DNA from: Pseudomonadota bacterium
GTDB taxonomy: Bacteria; Myxococcota_A; UBA796; GCA-2862545
Direction: 5' to 3'
Assembly (NCBI GenBank): GCA_002862545.1
Contig: PKDJ01000097.1
Span: 1-42,390, forward strand
DNA length: 42,390 bases
Shown: positions 14,538-24,262 of the stretch, piece by piece
How positions within the stretch are numbered: position 1 is the first letter of the stretch
Layout of the letters: each line of letters begins with the position of its first letter
Notes under the pieces: model-generated
Told to the model about the DNA's origin: nothing
What the model saw: only the letters and a program-made list of their open reading frames with translations
Database searches by the model: none
Made by a program: the position numbers and the translations under genes

Positions 14538-14980
14538 GGGCAGGCACCCGCAGCGTCTGGCCCCACCTCGATCTCGATCTCGTCGAACACGTCGAAGAAG
14601 CCGTGCTCGTTCTCGTGCAGCTCGACCGTGATCGCGAGAGAGGAGCCCACACTCAGCCCGCTCTGCTCCAACAGGAAGGACTGATCGAACGTGGACTCGT
14701 AGGCGGGCGGTGCCCAGATGACGTGCACGTGCCCCTCACCCTCCACGTTGGTGCGGGCGCTGCCGTCGTCGTTGGTGAACGACACCAACGTGAAGCTGTC
14801 GACATCCCAGGCCACGAAGGTGCGCAGGACGCAGTCTTCGTCGAGGGGAACGACCTCATTCGCGAGCGGTAGAACCAGCTTGATGGCGGGCTCACCGTCG
14901 ACACCAGCGACCCCAAAGTCAACGGGCGGCGGGGGCTCGCAAGCCGCCAACAGTAGCGGCGCCAGCACAACACAACGCAT
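14534..14980 (-). CDS. Lipoprotein upstream of the kinase
   Basis: The 148-residue product begins [14 protein letters not shown], with lipobox LAAC and Cys14. The mature part carries [12 protein letters not shown] and VELHENEHG, a His-strand pattern like the small beta-sandwich modules of DUF4399-type proteins, in which the histidines may bind a metal; that match is weak. It is the first gene of the operon and its TGA overlaps the kinase GTG. A GGAGAG stands close before ATG 14980. Its position suggests it is a ligand or accessory subunit for the kinase's outside domain. Confidence 0.7.
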
Positions 14981-15000
14981 GCACTCTCCAGACGCGCCCG

Positions 15001-15035
15001 AATATAGCGGAGACGCTCGCAGCGCGCGCGCTGCG
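15001..15035. promoter_or_regulatory. Perfect 18-bp palindrome beside a -10-like element
   Basis: CGCAGCGCGCGCGCTGCG (15018-15035) equals its own reverse complement. Next to it aatata (15001-15006) reads TATATT on the minus strand, close to a -10 hexamer, 20 bases before the start of the kinase operon. The palindrome would cover the -35 area. The gap is divergent (14981-15134), so an operator affecting one or both sides is possible. Confidence 0.3.
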
Positions 15036-15134
15036 TTGGGCTACCCAGCTACGCTTCGGCGCACTCGAAGCTCTTGCGCCTCGAGCGACTGCCCGCGACA
15101 GACCGCGATAGGACCTTGCACCAAGGAGCGAAAC

Positions 15135-17474
15135 ATGCGGTGGACGACCTTGATGGCCCTGGCCCTCCTCGCCTGCAGCGGCGACGACAAGGGGGGAGAC
15201 TCCGCGGCAGTCACGGATTCCGCTCCGACCACCACGAGCACCGGCTCCGGCACGACGGGGGCAGGCACGACGGGTGTGGGAACCACACCGGCAGGCACCA
15301 CATCGAGCTTCGACACAGACGGCGACGGGCTCACTGACCTCGAAGAAGAGGCGCTCGGCACCGATCCCAACGATGCCGACACCGACGATGACGGCATCGA
15401 GGATGGCAATGAGGTCGACCTAGGGACCGATCCGACGCGCGCCGATTCCGACGGTGACGGACTCGACGATGGCTTCGAGGTGGGAACCACCCGGACCGAC
15501 CCCACCGTCGCAGACTCGGACGGTGACGGACTCACCGACGGCGACGAAGTGAACGAGCACGGGACGAACCCGACCACCGCCGACACCGACCGCGACGGAC
15601 TCTCCGACGGGGACGAGGTGAACCTCTGGGGCAGCAACCCCGTCACCCAAGACACGGACGGTGACGGCGCTCCCGACGGGGACGAGGTCGCAGCAGGCAC
15701 CGACCCTACGCTCGCCGACACCGACGGCGACGGCATCAGCGACACGCAGGAGGTCCTCTACGGCACCGACCCTACGCTCGCCGACACCGATGAAGACGGC
15801 CTGACCGACGGCGACGAGGCGCTGCTCTACCGCTCCAACCCGCTCTCGACAGACACCGACGGCGACGGCTTGCTCGACGGCGACGAGGTGCTCATCCACG
15901 GCACCAACCCGACCGCGGTCGACAGCGACGGCGATGGCCTCGACGACGCCGTCGAGCTCGAGCTCGGCACTGACCCGGCAGTCGGCGACACCGACGGTGA
16001 CGGCCTGCCCGACGGCGTCGAGCAAGACGTGTGGCTCACGGACCCCCTCCTGGCCGACACCGATGCCGACGGTGTCGACGACGGAGACGAGGTCGACCGC
16101 GCTCTCGACCCCCTCGACGACGACACCGACGACGACGGCCTGCTCGACGGAGACGAGCTCGAGCGCGGCACGCGCCCCACTGTCGCGGACTCCGACGACG
16201 ATGGACTGACCGACGGCGATGAAGTCACGCTCCACGAGACGGACCCCTTGTCTGCTGACTCGGACGGCGACGGACTGACCGACTCGGAGGAGCTGGAGGT
16301 CCATGGCACCGATCCGCTGTCGCCCGACACCGACGCTGGCGGCACCTGGGACGGTGACGAGCTGCTGCTCGTCGGCTCGGACCCGCTCGACGCCAGCGAC
16401 GACTCGGACTGCCTCCCTCTCGACGCCGCTCCGAGCGCCCCCCTGGCGGAGGCGGTCTCCTTCGAGCCGGCCTTCGCCCAGTTTGCGCTCCACGGCGCCC
16501 TCGTCCGGGGCACGCTCCAAGACGGAGCCATCGGCATGACGCCTCGGTCTGCCGAGGTCGTGATCACCCTCTACGACAACAGCCGCACGCCCCGCTGCGA
16601 GGTTCGGGTCGACACCGACGGCCTCACACCCAGTGAGCGCCCCTTCGCCGAGGGGCTGTCCCAGGCGTGGGACCTCGACCCGCTCGTCGGAGTGAGCGGC
16701 TGCCCGGAGCTCGACGCCGACCTCTGGGGCTCGGACGACATCCGTGAGGTGCTCGCGGCAGTTCCATGGGGTCTCGGTCTCGGAACCGTCGACCGCCTCC
16801 TTCCCGCTGTTCGTGACGAGGCGGTGCTCGCCGGCGTCGACTTCGACACCGAGTGGGCTCCCTACCTGCACGGCCTGCGCGTGACGAGCACCGGCGAGCT
16901 GAGCCAGGAGCATGGCTACGGATTTGCCGCCGAGGCTCCATGCGGCGTCCAGAGTGACCATGCGGACTGGCTGCCCGCCGACGCCGCGACGGGCCTCGCG
17001 GCCTGGTGGGACCTCACCCCGCTCGACAGCTTCGTGCTGGAGCCCGAGGGCGAGCCGAGTCCCCGGGATGTCTCGCCCGCCGTCGACACCTGCGTCGACC
17101 TTCCCGAGCCGCTGACCTCCGGTGCATACCGCTTCGAGGGCTCGAACGACGGCCTCACCGATGACCTTGCTCTGCCGGTGCCCTCCTGCACCGGGTACGA
17201 CACGCGCGGCCCGGACAGCGTGCTCGCCGTCACGCTCGAGGCCGGCCAGCGGGTCGTCGCCCAGTACACCAGCCTCGACGACGGGTCGGTCTACCTGCTC
17301 TCCGACTGCGAGGACGCCACGACCTGCGTGGCCGGTGCCGACGATGTGCTGGAGCGCGCCACCGAGATGGTCGAGTGGACGAACGGCAGCGACGAAGACG
17401 TCACGCTCACCTTGGTGTTGGACTGCTACACCATGGACTGCGGCGGCTACACCCTCGACGTGGACATCTACTGA
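15135..17474 (+). CDS. Lipoprotein with 16 thrombospondin type-3 repeats and a PPC-like end
   Basis: ATG 15135, with GGAG at 15125-15128, gives 779 residues. The lipobox is LLAC ([14 protein letters not shown]), followed by a Thr/Gly stalk. Residues 59 to about 420 hold sixteen units of about 22 residues with pattern D(T/S)DxDGLxDGDEVxxxGTDP, the Ca2+-binding thrombospondin type-3 repeat common in surface proteins of this phylum. A middle domain (about 430-650) is unrecognised. The last 120 residues, opening around [18 protein letters not shown] and ending [10 protein letters not shown], look like a pre-peptidase C-terminal (PPC) beta domain. Likely a Ca2+-stiffened outer-surface protein. The arylsulfotransferase-type gene follows with overlapping stop and start. 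Confidence 0.85.
15309..16392 (+). repeat. Thrombospondin type-3 coding repeats (about 66 bp, 16 units)
   Basis: The units are diverged at DNA level but share gac-acc-gac-ggc-gac cores. They code for the Asp-rich Ca2+-binding loops of the surrounding lipoprotein. The high Asp content makes the opposite strand open too, which creates long spurious antisense frames. Confidence 0.85.
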
Positions 17475-19744: not shown

Positions 19745-20097
19745 TCGGTGGCGGTGGTGGTCCCGGTGCTCTCGCTCATACTCCAGGCGCACTCATCGCC
19801 TGAGTAGACCTGCGTGCAGACCGCCACGCCGGCCACGGCAGCATCGCAGCTGGCCTCGTCGAGTGCCTTCAGGCACGCGCGTGCCTCGGTGCCGCTGTAG
19901 TCGCACCCTGCGACGCTCGCCTCGACCAGGATGCCGTAGAACGTCTCGCAGTCGCCCTGGTCGCCGAACGACACCTGTGCGTCGTCGCAGGACGCGAGAA
20001 GCTCACAGCTCTTCGCCGCATACTGCTCCTGGAACTTGTCTTCTCCCAGACCACATGCCACGAGACAGACCAGCGCCATCACGAACCCGACCCTCAT
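19741..20097 (-). CDS. Small cysteine-rich lipoprotein
   Basis: The 118-residue product starts at ATG 20097 behind AGGAGGTCTC, an ideal site. The signal MRVGFVMALVCLVAC gives lipidated Cys15. The mature part (FQEQYAAKSCELLASC and eight further cysteines in spaced pairs) matches a type of small lipoprotein frequent in Myxococcota, with no assigned function. The end is Thr-rich. It is the first gene of a coupled pair with the M28 peptidase. Confidence 0.8.
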   Translation of the reverse strand: MRVGFVMALVCLVACGLGEDKFQEQYAAKSCELLASCDDAQVSFGDQGDCETFYGILVEASVAGCDYSGTEARACLKALDEASCDAAVAGVAVCTQVYSGDECAWSMSESTGTTTATE

Positions 20098-20188
20098 GAG
20101 ACCTCCTCAGCTCGCCCTCGATGGACCACGCTTAGCATCCACTGGTTCCGGTCGCTTCCCGAGATATGCGGCGCACCTCGGAGGACGA

Positions 20189-20953
20189 GTGCGAACGCTC
20201 TGCGCCATGATCTTCTTGATCCTCGCCTCGGCGGCGCACGCCGAGCCGAGACGAATACAGCCCGGAGAGCTGTACGGGCATCGCGGCGGCTGGACCGGCA
20301 ACGCCTACACCGCGAAGCAGGGCACGGTGAACCTTCACCCCCTGCTGCGCTCGAGCATCGGCGTCACCGACTTCATGGACCTCAAGGTGTCCTTCCTCGG
20401 CCTGGTCTTCGGCCCGGCCGTGTCTGCCGAGTTCGCTGTGGTCGACACCGGCACCGTCGCGGTGTCGGTCGAGCCCCGCCTCGCCTCCTCGTGGACCGCG
20501 AGCCGACTCGATCTCGGCACGGCCGCCCGCGTGACCTTCGGAAGCCCCAAGAAGGGCTTGTTCACCACGGGCCTGCTCGTCGCTCACTGCTCGGGCTGTG
20601 GTCTCGACACCAACAACGACGGCATCCCCGACACCGCGGTCAAGCAGGGTGTCTACGACCTACGACCCGAGGTGACGTACGAGTTCGTGCTCACCAAGAA
20701 GTCCCATCTCGTGGTCACCGGACGAACCAACATCATCCAGCTCTCACGCGGTCGAGCCGTCGGAACCCTCGGCTCCTACTATGCGCTCGCCAGCGGCTCG
20801 GTCGGCGTCTCGCTCGGGCTGAACATCGGGCTGCTCGACATCACCGAGGTCAACGCCACCCTCGAGAGCCTGGAGCGGCTCGGCATCCAGCCGCTCGGCA
20901 GCAACGTCCTGCCCATCCCCCTGCCCCATGCCCAGCTCTGGTTCCGGCTCTGA
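20189..20953 (+). CDS. Probable outer-membrane protein
   Basis: GTG 20189 is chosen because GGAGG at 20180-20184 precedes it by four bases; ATG 20207, six codons later, has no site of its own. The signal VRTLCAMIFLILASAAHA is cut after AHA. The 254-residue product then alternates polar and hydrophobic residues (VSFLGLVFGPAVSAEFAVV, GTVAVSVEPRLASSW) and ends QLWFRL, typical of a barrel's last strand. One insert, GLDTNNDGIPDTA, is Asp/Asn-rich like a Ca2+ loop. The third codon position is strongly G/C up to the stop, so this strand is the real coding one in the 210-base overlap with the GTPase gene. Confidence 0.7.
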   Translation: MRTLCAMIFLILASAAHAEPRRIQPGELYGHRGGWTGNAYTAKQGTVNLHPLLRSSIGVTDFMDLKVSFLGLVFGPAVSAEFAVVDTGTVAVSVEPRLASSWTASRLDLGTAARVTFGSPKKGLFTTGLLVAHCSGCGLDTNNDGIPDTAVKQGVYDLRPEVTYEFVLTKKSHLVVTGRTNIIQLSRGRAVGTLGSYYALASGSVGVSLGLNIGLLDITEVNATLESLERLGIQPLGSNVLPIPLPHAQLWFRL

Positions 20954-22117
20954 GGCGGGCCGGACGTCCTCGCTGGACGCCGCTCCGCTGACCCAGGGCA
21001 GCTCCCCTGCATCCTTGCCGAGGTGCTCGAGGCGCTCCACGAGCCAGTCGTGCACCGGCCCGAGCCCGATGGGTGACTCCGACAGCTGCGGCAGCGGGTC
21101 GAAGGCCGCGGCCGCGAAGTCCTCCGCGCGCACGGCGAGCTTGTCCCGAGCATCGGCGAGGTAGCGCTCCCGGTCTCGCTCTCGCAACGTGTCGATCTTG
21201 TTCACCACCACCAGCGCTGGCCGACCCGTGGCCCGGACGCTCTCCCAGTCCGCCTTCTCCCGCGCCTGGACGCCGCCTTGGGCGTTGACGACGTAGATGT
21301 ACACATCGATGTGGTCCAGGATCTGCCTGGCCTCTTCGGTGACCGCCTCGACCACGTCGCCGAGGCCCGGTGTGTTGACGACAAACAGCGCCGTCGAGCC
21401 TGGAAGGCGCTGAATCTCCACCTCGGTGGTCGACCCCGCCACCGGATCGACGTTGCCCGAATCGATCCCGAAGATGGCCTTGATGGCCGCATCCTTGCCC
21501 GCGCTCGGAGAGCCGACCACCCCCACCGTCACGCGGTGGCGCACCGTCTGCCGCAGGCGAGCGACCTCGAGGACGGCCGGCAGGACCACGCGGTCGTCCG
21601 GTCGGGTGACCCAGAAGACGAGGAGGCACCCCGCCAGCGGCCCCATTCGCAGGACAGTGCTCGCCATCACCGACGTCGCGACGTAGCCGAAGCGGCGGTT
21701 CAGAGCCCGCTCTGCGACCGCGGGGACCTCGGCGGGATCCCGCGGTGAGGGAGGCGACTGTCCGAGAGCACGCCACATCACGGCCTGCTCCTCGGAGGAG
21801 AGGTGCACCCAGCTGCGCTCGAGAGCCCGCCTGACGAGAGCGACCTCCCCGGCCTCCAGTCCCACGTCCGCGGTGAGGCGCTGCCGTGCGAGCAGGTCGT
21901 CCAGCACCTTTCGGTAGGAGGGCCCATCGCCACGCCGCCTGAGCTTGTCGAGCACGCTGCCACCTGCGCGCCTGAGGGTCGCCGCGAGGTGTCGGGCAAG
22001 GGCGTCCCGGCCCATCCCCTGTGGACGCACACGCAGCGTCTGGGCCAGCGTGATCAGCTCGTCACGGTGACACTTGCGGAGGAGGTCCTCGAGGTCGAGC
22101 TCAGAGGTCGTCGCCAT
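20744..22117 (-). CDS. GTPase with YaaW/UPF0174-like N-terminal domain and GKD P-loop
   Basis: ATG 22117 overlaps the end of the upstream GTPase gene by 17 bases and gives 457 residues. Residues 5-120 follow the DUF3944/UPF0174 (YaaW) pattern: LDLEDLLRKCHRDEL, then RRAGGSVLDKLRRRGDGPSY, and LSSEEQAVMWRAL. A hydrophobic stretch lies at about 145-170. The GTPase domain has P-loop GSPSAGKD (202-209) with Asp209 where Ser/Thr is normal, GST (228-230), G3 as NTPG (248-251) with Asn for Asp, and NKID (306-309). The last 69 residues are antisense to the barrel gene and have poor codon bias. This suggests an older stop near 20950 was lost. Confidence 0.8.
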   Translation of the reverse strand: MATTSELDLEDLLRKCHRDELITLAQTLRVRPQGMGRDALARHLAATLRRAGGSVLDKLRRRGDGPSYRKVLDDLLARQRLTADVGLEAGEVALVRRALERSWVHLSSEEQAVMWRALGQSPPSPRDPAEVPAVAERALNRRFGYVATSVMASTVLRMGPLAGCLLVFWVTRPDDRVVLPAVLEVARLRQTVRHRVTVGVVGSPSAGKDAAIKAIFGIDSGNVDPVAGSTTEVEIQRLPGSTALFVVNTPGLGDVVEAVTEEARQILDHIDVYIYVVNAQGGVQAREKADWESVRATGRPALVVVNKIDTLRERDRERYLADARDKLAVRAEDFAAAAFDPLPQLSESPIGLGPVHDWLVERLEHLGKDAGELPWVSGAASSEDVRPASEPEPELGMGQGDGQDVAAERLDAEPLQALEGGVDLGDVEQPDVQPERDADRAAGERIVGAEGSDGSTA

Positions 22118-23258
22118 CCAACACCTGGGGCGGCTCGGCTGTGTGCGCGTCCATGTCGACGACGCGCGAGCGATAGGCATGCGCCTCGGCATCGAAGATC
22201 TCGCGAATCTCGACGCCCGAGAGGTTGCCGTCCTTCTGCATCCATGCGACTGCTGCACGGCCGACGCCGTACGTGGTCGCTGCTGCGATGCCTGCTCCCA
22301 GGGCGCTGGTGGCCACGTGAACCGCCTGGGTGCCGGGGACCCACCCCGCTGTCTTCGCGGCATTCAGCGCCCACCGCACGAAGCTCTTGCTGCCACCCGC
22401 CAGCGCCTCACCCAAGATGAAGAGCACCAGCTCCCGGTCCATCCGTCGGTCGAACACCGCGGCGATGTCCGTGATGAGCTTCACCTGGATGGCCGTGACA
22501 GCGGTGGCGTCCGCTCCTGGCACCGGAATGGCCCCCGCCATGGCCGAGCGGCGCGCTGCCGCTCGAATGATGGCCTCGCAGGCCGCGGCGCGACTGCGGA
22601 GGTGCTTGGCGAACAGGAGCGACTTGCCATCCTTCTCGAGCTGTCGGTGGATCCACTGGATGACCGCGTCGACGCCGATGGGCTCCTCGGAGAGCACCGG
22701 CAGGGGGTCGAAGGCAGTGACGACAGCCTCGTCGCGCCTCAGGCCCAGCTGCGACAGCGTGGCCTCAATGAAGGCCTCACGCTGGTGCTCCCGGATGAGG
22801 TCAATCTTGTTGAGGCAGACCAGCGTCGGACGCCCCAGGGCACGGATGGCGTCGAGGTCGCGACGCTCATCGATGGTCGCGCCCCCATCGCTATTGACCA
22901 CATAGATCGCGATGTCGAGCTGATCGAGCGCCCTACGAGCCTCAGCCTCCACCGCGGCGCGCAGATCGCCGAAGCCCGGGGCATTGATCACCATGAAGCG
23001 GCCGTCGAGATCGACCGGCGCCACGCGGATCCGATCCGTGGATCCCGGGATGGGGTCGACCTCGCCGAAGTCGACGTCGAAGAGGGCCCGGATCGCGCTG
23101 TCCTTGCCGCTGCTCGCTGAGCCGAGGAAGGCGACAGCGAGCGTCTGCTCGAGCGCGATGCGCACCTCGTCGTGAGCGATCTCCCAGCGCTCGCGGGCGC
23201 TCGCCTTGACGTCGGCCACCAGCTCCTGGCTGGCGACGGTGAGCTCGTCCTGGCTCAA
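22101..23258 (-). CDS. GTPase with DUF697-like membrane domain and GKD P-loop
   Basis: The frame is open up to 23807, but that part is antisense-like to the reductase gene. TTG 23258, with GGAGGG just before it and overlapping the reductase TGA as TTGA, gives 385 residues. The GTPase has P-loop GSASSGKD (46-53), GST (72-74), G3 as NAPG (92-95) and NKID (150-153). These are the same two changes from GKS and DxPG seen in the next gene. Residues about 215-350 (GAIPVPGADATAVTAIQVKL, then Gly/Ala helices) match DUF697-type domains found in membrane-linked GTPases. It is the middle gene of a three-gene coupled operon. Confidence 0.85.
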   Translation of the reverse strand: MSQDELTVASQELVADVKASARERWEIAHDEVRIALEQTLAVAFLGSASSGKDSAIRALFDVDFGEVDPIPGSTDRIRVAPVDLDGRFMVINAPGFGDLRAAVEAEARRALDQLDIAIYVVNSDGGATIDERRDLDAIRALGRPTLVCLNKIDLIREHQREAFIEATLSQLGLRRDEAVVTAFDPLPVLSEEPIGVDAVIQWIHRQLEKDGKSLLFAKHLRSRAAACEAIIRAAARRSAMAGAIPVPGADATAVTAIQVKLITDIAAVFDRRMDRELVLFILGEALAGGSKSFVRWALNAAKTAGWVPGTQAVHVATSALGAGIAAATTYGVGRAAVAWMQKDGNLSGVEIREIFDAEAHAYRSRVVDMDAHTAEPPQVLDGDDL

Positions 23259-24262
23259 GCTCCCTCCACCACCCGGCCGCGAACCGGAAAGTACGCCGGG
23301 TCGGGAACGGTCTCGCCGGTGGCGGTTCCGGGGGCGACGAGGGCGTCGCAGCGTGCCTCCAGATCCGGCGTCCAGGAGACCTGACTGCCGGCGATGTACT
23401 GCTCGAGCTGCCCGAGGGTGCGTGGGCCGATCACGGTGCTGGTGACGGCCTGGTTTGCCAAGACCCAGGCTGTCGCCAGGCTCGACGGCGCCACGCCAAC
23501 CTCTCCTGCGAGCGCCGAGAAGCGCTGCGCAACCGGCAGCGAGGCCTCGCGCCACTCTGCCTGCAGGAACCTCGTGTTCTGCCGATCCAGGCGACTCCCT
23601 CGGGGGACGCTCTCCCCTGTGTACTTGCCCGTCAGGACGCCCCGAGCGAGTGGCGAGTAGGTGACCACCCCGACGCCCTTGCGCTGTGCCATGGGGATGA
23701 ACTCGTACTCGAGCTGACGGTTGACCAGAGAGTAGGGATTCTGGCCGGCAACGACGGGCGACCAGTCGTGGCGGGTCGCCACCCGCAGGAGCTCCACGAC
23801 CTCCCACGCGAAGTAGTTCGAGCAGGCGACGTACCGGACGCGGCCAGACCGAACGAGATCCTCCATGGCGCGGAGGGTCTCGTGGATCGGTACCTGCCGA
23901 TCAGGCAGGTGCATGTAGTACAGGTCGATCCAGTCGGTACCGAGCCTCGCCAGCGAGGCGTCGCAGGCCTGGAGCAGGTGCCTCGCAGAGAGTCCGCGAT
24001 CGTTCACCCCCGGCCCCATAGGCGCCCAGGCCTTGGTCGCGAGCACGATCTGATCACGTCGACCGCGCATCAGGTGGCCGAGCATCTCCTCAGAGGTGCC
24101 CCGGCCGTACATGTCCGCGGTGTCCCAGAAGAAGATCCCGGCATCCAGGGCGCGATCACAGATGGCCGACGCCTCGTCGAGCTCGGTGACATCGCCGAAG
24201 TTCATTGTGCCGAGGCACAGGCGGCTCACTCGCAGGCCGCACCGACCGAGCTGCACGGGCAT
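23255..24262 (-). CDS. Aldo/keto reductase
   Basis: The 335-residue TIM-barrel enzyme has the full AKR tetrad: Asp47 and Tyr52 (DTADMYG), Lys77 (ATKAW) and His118 (MHLPDR). ACSNYFAWE and VVTYSPLARGVLTGKY are further family blocks, and IGPRTLGQLEQ binds the NADPH phosphate. It should reduce an aldehyde or ketone using NADPH in the cytoplasm; the substrate is unknown. GAGGAGGACTGC precedes ATG 24262. Its stop overlaps the TTG start of the GTPase gene, so this metabolic-type enzyme is translated with the two GTPases, which is unusual company. Confidence 0.92.
   Translation of the reverse strand: MPVQLGRCGLRVSRLCLGTMNFGDVTELDEASAICDRALDAGIFFWDTADMYGRGTSEEMLGHLMRGRRDQIVLATKAWAPMGPGVNDRGLSARHLLQACDASLARLGTDWIDLYYMHLPDRQVPIHETLRAMEDLVRSGRVRYVACSNYFAWEVVELLRVATRHDWSPVVAGQNPYSLVNRQLEYEFIPMAQRKGVGVVTYSPLARGVLTGKYTGESVPRGSRLDRQNTRFLQAEWREASLPVAQRFSALAGEVGVAPSSLATAWVLANQAVTSTVIGPRTLGQLEQYIAGSQVSWTPDLEARCDALVAPGTATGETVPDPAYFPVRGRVVEGA

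Follow-up and report, generated by a model that had tools for sequence, protein, structure and literature searches.

In ordinary P-loop NTPases, the Ser or Thr that follows the P-loop Lys (position K+1) binds Mg2+ and forms a hydrogen bond with the Walker B Asp. In the available portion of a 2022 analysis, the Walker A Ser/Thr and the Walker B Asp are described as strictly conserved and as a universal catalytic module, the hydrogen-bonded pair being modelled as what traps the proton in every P-loop NTPase (PMC9599734). In MnmE-type GTPases, the Asn at K-3 is a K+ ligand, and dynamins, which have Ser at that position, are adapted to Na+ (PMC6310460, in the portion available). JukA (YaaW, UPF0174), a component of the jumbo phage killer (Juk) system, is a known phage sensor, and a diversity of Juk effectors has been reported (available portion of PMC13282480). 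Fusions of YaaW to a GTPase domain were recorded in 2008 in Shewanella and Campylobacter coli (PMC2268670, available text). Here we describe two neighboring GTPases, A and B, encoded on contig PKDJ01000097.1 of a Pseudomonadota bacterium (42,390 nucleotides; the whole of this stretch is referred to as the window), in which both members of the Ser/Thr-Asp pair are replaced, the first by Asp and the second by Asn. The pair and its motifs are arranged as follows.

22101..23258, minus strand: GTPase A, 385 residues, TTG start; N-terminal helix, G domain, and C-terminal DUF697 domain
23100..23123, minus strand: G1 (P-loop) of A, GSASSGKD; Asp53 at K+1 and Ser49 at K-3
22965..22985, minus strand: G3 of A, NAPGFGD; Asn92 at the Walker B Asp position
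22800..22811, minus strand: G4 of A, NKID, unaltered
22227..22601, minus strand: DUF697 domain of A
20744..22117, minus strand: GTPase B, 457 residues, ATG start; 17-base overlap with the end of A
21548..22117, minus strand: N-terminal helical domain of B, distantly YaaW/JukA-like (partial JukA match, 2.6e-8; profile-profile match to family C, below)
21491..21514, minus strand: G1 (P-loop) of B, GSPSAGKD; Asp209 at K+1
21356..21376, minus strand: G3 of B, NTPGLGD; Asn248
20744..20992, minus strand: C-terminal tail of B, extending past the portion common to most listed homologues
G5 loops: residues 183-185 of A and 339-341 of B

The first-pass annotation had claimed a double motif change in both GTPases, with the GST and NKID motifs normal, and both parts of that claim are borne out, GST and NKID being intact in A and B. 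Profiles of each family aligned with Era and Der from the PDB put the new Asp on the Ser/Thr and the new Asn on the Asp. Searches against 5.8 billion proteins, which score only about 8,000 candidates per query (those that have the most words in common with it), returned 347 relatives of A, 386 of B, and 246 of a third family, C, found by a search from L080, a distant relative belonging to a different family within the phylum. For each query the 120 best matches were analyzed, and the resulting 360 listed proteins include L080 itself and the A of the window. Asp is found at K+1 in all 360 (120/120 in each family), and Asn is found in G3 in 359 (119/120 in A and 120/120 in both B and C), the exception being P0085, which has Lys. 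The proposal that the change is fixed in both paralogues thus holds among the listed homologues, and GKD and NxPG do change together.

The P-loop Lys and the switch-I Thr are found in 360/360 listed homologues and NKxD is found in 358/360. The K-3 position, occupied by Ser in 353 and by Ala in 7, does not show the Asn/Asp of K+-activated GTPases, and the sequence FDP stands at the usual position of the G5 (S/T)A loop in 344/360. The median pairwise identity is 67% in A, 55% in B, and 52% in C (lowest values, 56%, 45%, and 43%, respectively), indicating strong conservation rather than recent copying. A register shifted by one residue, with a Ser at K+2 as the ligand, is ruled out, since K+2 is Ala in 200/360 (119/120 in B), so that a shifted Ser is unable to replace the lost ligand. 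An Asp six residues past the G3 Asn is invariant (360/360); it was considered as a compensating residue and rejected, because the canonical GTPase pair at L079 has the same Asp, which places it outside the swap.

Among loci from the genome scan, both changes are found in 36/36 A genes, and the B genes have GKD in 30/30 and Asn in 29/30 (the exception is L012), with one further B row that ends before the G domain left uncounted; these loci are not an unbiased sample, because the scan patterns include GKD. No single-change relative was seen in this biased sampling, whether of the GKS-plus-NxPG type or of the GKD-plus-DxPG type that would speak against a linked change. A less biased sample was provided by profile searches of 282 genomes of the phylum (up to seven first-look candidates scored per genome). 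Apart from the L079 pair, these gave 25 further GTPase matches outside the family, of which the 23 that were read all have GKS and the G3 Asp; the motifs of the remaining two, L180 and L181, are unreadable by pattern. In the window's own genome, 16 further PF01926 matches have Ser/Thr at K+1 (13/13 read) and Asp in G3 (11/11 read).

The nearest canonical relatives that were read, namely, the L079 tandem pair, other DUF697 GTPases, and Der, have both residues in normal form. The canonical DUF697 GTPases (L079, L147, L143, L132, L134, and L149) resemble A in having DUF697 beside the G domain, and the L079 pair resembles A-B in being a tandem of two GTPases; however, they carry GKS and DTPG or DTRG, L079 having GKS, DTPGLED, and Asn at K-3. 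Similarly, Era, Der (EngA), MnmE, and EngB of the TRAFAC class, which are among the best PDB matches in both sequence and fold, share with A and B the fold, the G1 Lys, the switch-I Thr, and NKxD, whereas A, B, and C differ from them in having Asp for Ser/Thr at K+1, Asn for Asp in G3, Ser/Ala for Asn at K-3, and FDP in G5. AlphaFold models of A and B (pLDDT, the predicted local distance difference test score, of 86) are GTPase folds of the TRAFAC kind. Thus, measured against Era-like GTPases, the predicted fold, switch-I Thr, and G4 NKxD are present and the G1 Ser/Thr and G3 Asp are missing.

Human phosphomevalonate kinase also has Asp at K+1. The same is true of the T4 deoxynucleoside monophosphate (dNMP) kinase (PDB 1dek), whose P-loop reads GKD, so K+1 Asp is not unique to these families among P-loop proteins. 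Unlike A, B, and C, the T4 enzyme is a kinase and not a GTPase, and it retains an Asp in what by reading is the likely Walker B stretch, IVPD; the dNMP-kinase family was found in 0/19 of the relatives.

A tree from which the two motif columns were omitted was built from 36 rows (12 each of A, B, and C, those of A and B being eight listed proteins and four loci each and those of C being 12 listed proteins), together with 13 canonical GTPase rows. The sampled A, B, and C sequences fall on one side of a branch (support, 97/88) that separates them from the canonical rows; support is 100/99 for A and for C and is weaker for B (89/71), and the order of the outgroups, which sit on long branches, is unsure. 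Because the three families group together without the motif columns, the swap probably has one origin. The suggestion that the double change defines an undescribed GTPase group is supported, and that group is wider than the pair of paralogues, since the mainly proteobacterial family C shares the swap. Full-text literature searches, whose coverage is partial and leaves subscription papers mostly out of scope, gave no account of DUF697 GTPases as a group, of the motif change, or of a known family with both changes. In the sources as available, YaaW-GTPase fusions and JukA as a phage sensor are already known, and a motif change across the clade was not found described.

The domains that flank the G domain differ among the families. 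A matches PF01926 (33.3 bits) and, in its C-terminal part, DUF697 (PF05128; 36.7 bits, above its cutoff of 27.7). The model of A aligns with the immunity-related GTPases Irga6, Irgb10, and GM4951 over about 260 to 275 residues (root mean square deviation, 7 to 9 Å), a common arrangement whose 11 to 12% identity does not demonstrate kinship. The N-terminal domain of C is JukA by the PADLOC profile (E values of 1.5e-42 to 1.2e-48) in all three of the proteins scanned among the 120 listed, and that of B gives two partial and weak matches to the same profile (2.6e-8 and 2.4e-7). In a profile-profile comparison, the N terminus of B matches that of C with a probability of 99.6 and an E value of 1.3e-23. 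The PADLOC JukA models (234 to 250 positions) span the sensor domain only. In the 17 plasmid records that tblastn recovered, no match extends beyond residue 245 of 417, and thus none of them shows the GTPase part. The Shewanella and C. coli fusions resemble C in joining YaaW to a GTPase domain, and the Shewanella protein P0351 is a member of C; the available text of PMC2268670 does not mention changed motifs. A kinship between the DUF697 part of A and the JukA domain was also considered and finds no support (hhalign E values of 0.11 and 0.34). A sequence search found no solved JukA structure, which is not proof of its absence.

Among the 282 genomes sampled, A and B were seen solely in the order to which the window belongs. 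Of the 49 genomes sampled from that order, 33 have both genes, 1 (79% complete) has B alone, and 15 have neither. A and B are adjacent in 28 of the 33 genomes and on different contigs in the other 5, and B lies directly downstream of A in 29/36 loci. Both genes are present in 17/19 sampled genomes of one family, f4. A tree of A (31 rows) mostly tracks host families, requiring five label changes against a minimum of three; members of family f1 are dispersed over forks with weak support, and G038, an f1 genome, falls inside f4. A and B thus appear to be mostly vertically inherited. Beyond the A-B pair itself, any gene that neighbor clustering found in several loci was confined to a minority of them. 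Five loci titled Klebsiella pneumoniae or Bifidobacterium breve (L019, L032, L037, L039, and L040) also carry an A gene; since the phylum search saw A only in the window's order, these are probably mislabelled metagenome bins.

Family C occurs in Proteobacteria and in at least one myxobacterium, its named members among those listed including Vibrio, Shewanella, Serratia, Pectobacterium/Dickeya, Novosphingobium, Azospirillum, and Rubrivivax, along with one Polyangiaceae bin. At L080 the C gene lies between DrmA-DrmB-DrmC (DISARM), which adjoins it, and an integrase, and at L158, the one locus that a scan of viral contigs with C revealed, an integrase lies about 3 kb from the C gene. Both loci encode, close by and divergently from C, a sigma-54-type AAA protein that is RtcR/PspF-like (L080, 6139-7836; L158, 2003-3664), with a small open reading frame between the two genes at L158; this protein is possibly a conserved regulator or partner of the JukA-GTPase fusion. 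The viral-contig scan with B found no locus, and the phage records held one partial YaaW match, without the GTPase part. We also found a plasmid-borne YaaW protein of 404 residues (L187, 3968-5182) that differs in its C-terminal part and lacks a P-loop motif; its gene is flanked by one for a WYL-domain protein and one for a membrane protein.

Our preferred reading, to which we give a probability of about one half, is that A and B, which form a conserved pair, are GTP-driven switches with a rebuilt metal site, B being the sensor and A the effector, and that C is likely anti-phage. The prediction is that the K+1 Asp takes over Mg2+ binding from the Ser/Thr hydroxyl, with the G3 Asn forming a hydrogen bond to this Asp, so that a carboxylate would shift from the outer to the inner metal shell and the total charge of the site would be kept. 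The idea of a compensating swap, raised in the first-pass annotation, fits the sequence evidence, and the swap likely means that the metal is held in a manner particular to these proteins. GTP would be bound and turned over, and because the K-3 Asn is lost and dynamins with Ser there are adapted to Na+ (PMC6310460, in part), the activation route likely differs from the usual K+ route. The JukA-like part of B may sense something, the helical DUF697 part of A may act at the membrane, and the two together may form sensor plus effector, whereas C, in which this GTPase is joined directly to a complete JukA domain, is a likely anti-phage module. A broader proposal, that a widespread clade has dispensed with the Walker A Ser/Thr-Walker B Asp pair in GTP hydrolysis, relies instead on a metal-bound Asp partnered by an Asn, and came to serve phage sensing through fusion to JukA, is put forward only tentatively.

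Several points weigh against the preferred reading. In the available portion of PMC9599734, replacement of either residue is reported to abolish activity, and A, B, and C may therefore be non-hydrolyzing. The match of B's own sequence to JukA is weak, and the DUF697 part of A, through which membrane contact would be made, is of moderate hydropathy, with peaks of only 1.1 to 1.5. A largely tracks host families, unlike typical mobile defense genes, neighbor clustering revealed no conserved defense neighbors of A-B, and only two C loci (L080 and L158) have a readable context.

The same evidence bears on whether the A-B pair is itself a Juk-type immune system with B as the sensor and A as the effector, which we regard as doubtful. 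The JukA-like N terminus of B, the location of a family C gene in a defense island, and the reported diversity of Juk effectors (available portion of PMC13282480) would all be expected of such a system; however, A-B is restricted to one order among the 282 genomes, is largely vertical, and occurs in nearly all sampled f4 genomes (17/19) without defense neighbors. PADLOC likewise gave no matches among eight neighbors in the window, the only A-B locus whose neighbors it covered, and so does not place A and B in a defense island. For A and B, a resident role in surveillance or membrane maintenance is as likely as one in defense.

It is unlikely, on our assessment, that these proteins are pseudo-GTPases, that is, nucleotide-sensing scaffolds for GTP or GDP that may bind without Mg2+ and do not carry out hydrolysis. 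Both residues of the pair deemed essential for hydrolysis in PMC9599734 (as available) are gone, as is the Asn that serves as K+ ligand, but degenerating sites drift, and here the Lys, Thr, NKxD, Asp, and Asn are fixed at identities down to 43%. That the motifs stay fixed while identity falls suggests that each of the two new residues does something useful. It is more improbable still that the swap is an adaptation to another metal, such as Mn2+ or Ca2+, or to another guanine nucleotide, e.g., an alarmone: both the metal pocket and the base pocket would be affected by a direct carboxylate ligand and by the FDP sequence of the G5 loop, but NKxD and the phosphate-binding Lys are retained, and nothing favors a particular alternative. 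Chance, sequencing error, or a wrong register, to which the isolated exceptions P0085 and L012 might point, can be set aside as already refuted by the agreement of 359 to 360 of the 360 listed proteins and of the genome loci and by the profile register.

The gene upstream of A in the window is as follows.

23255..24262, minus strand: aldo/keto reductase (AKR), stop overlapping the start of A; not conserved as a neighbor

The first-pass annotation had placed the AKR in one coupled operon with the GTPases. This is true of the window, where the AKR stop overlaps the TTG start of A, but an AKR lies within the available flanking sequence in only 2/36 other loci, in one case on the strand of A, 1.8 kb upstream, and in the other on the opposite strand at a distance of about 0.5 kb; it is directly upstream in none, with more than 1.1 kb of sequence upstream of A in 34 of the 36. 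In the neighbor clustering, an overlap filter removed the window's AKR. A place for the AKR in the system is unsupported, and the operon link as a general feature falls away.

At the other end of the pair, the last 80 or so residues of B are antisense to a convergent gene (20036-20953, plus strand; 210-base overlap) that has no Pfam match, and P0123, a near-identical copy of B, bears the same C-terminal tail. Elsewhere in the window, 14718-17474 encodes a protein with nine TSP3-type repeat matches, adjoining an arylsulfotransferase-like protein and an M28 peptidase.

We read A, B, and C, from their motifs, as switches driven by GTP in which the Mg2+ carboxylate has been relocated. They form a natural, widespread clade in which both Walker residues are replaced together, and because the replacement occurs in step, the proton-trap model set out in the available portion of PMC9599734 becomes testable on wild-type proteins. 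If the clade hydrolyzes GTP, the Ser/Thr-Asp pair would be dispensable in its usual form; if it does not, the phage-sensor fusion would treat GTP as a signal and not as fuel. A large GTPase clade for which no characterized member was found is also linked in this way to Juk immunity.
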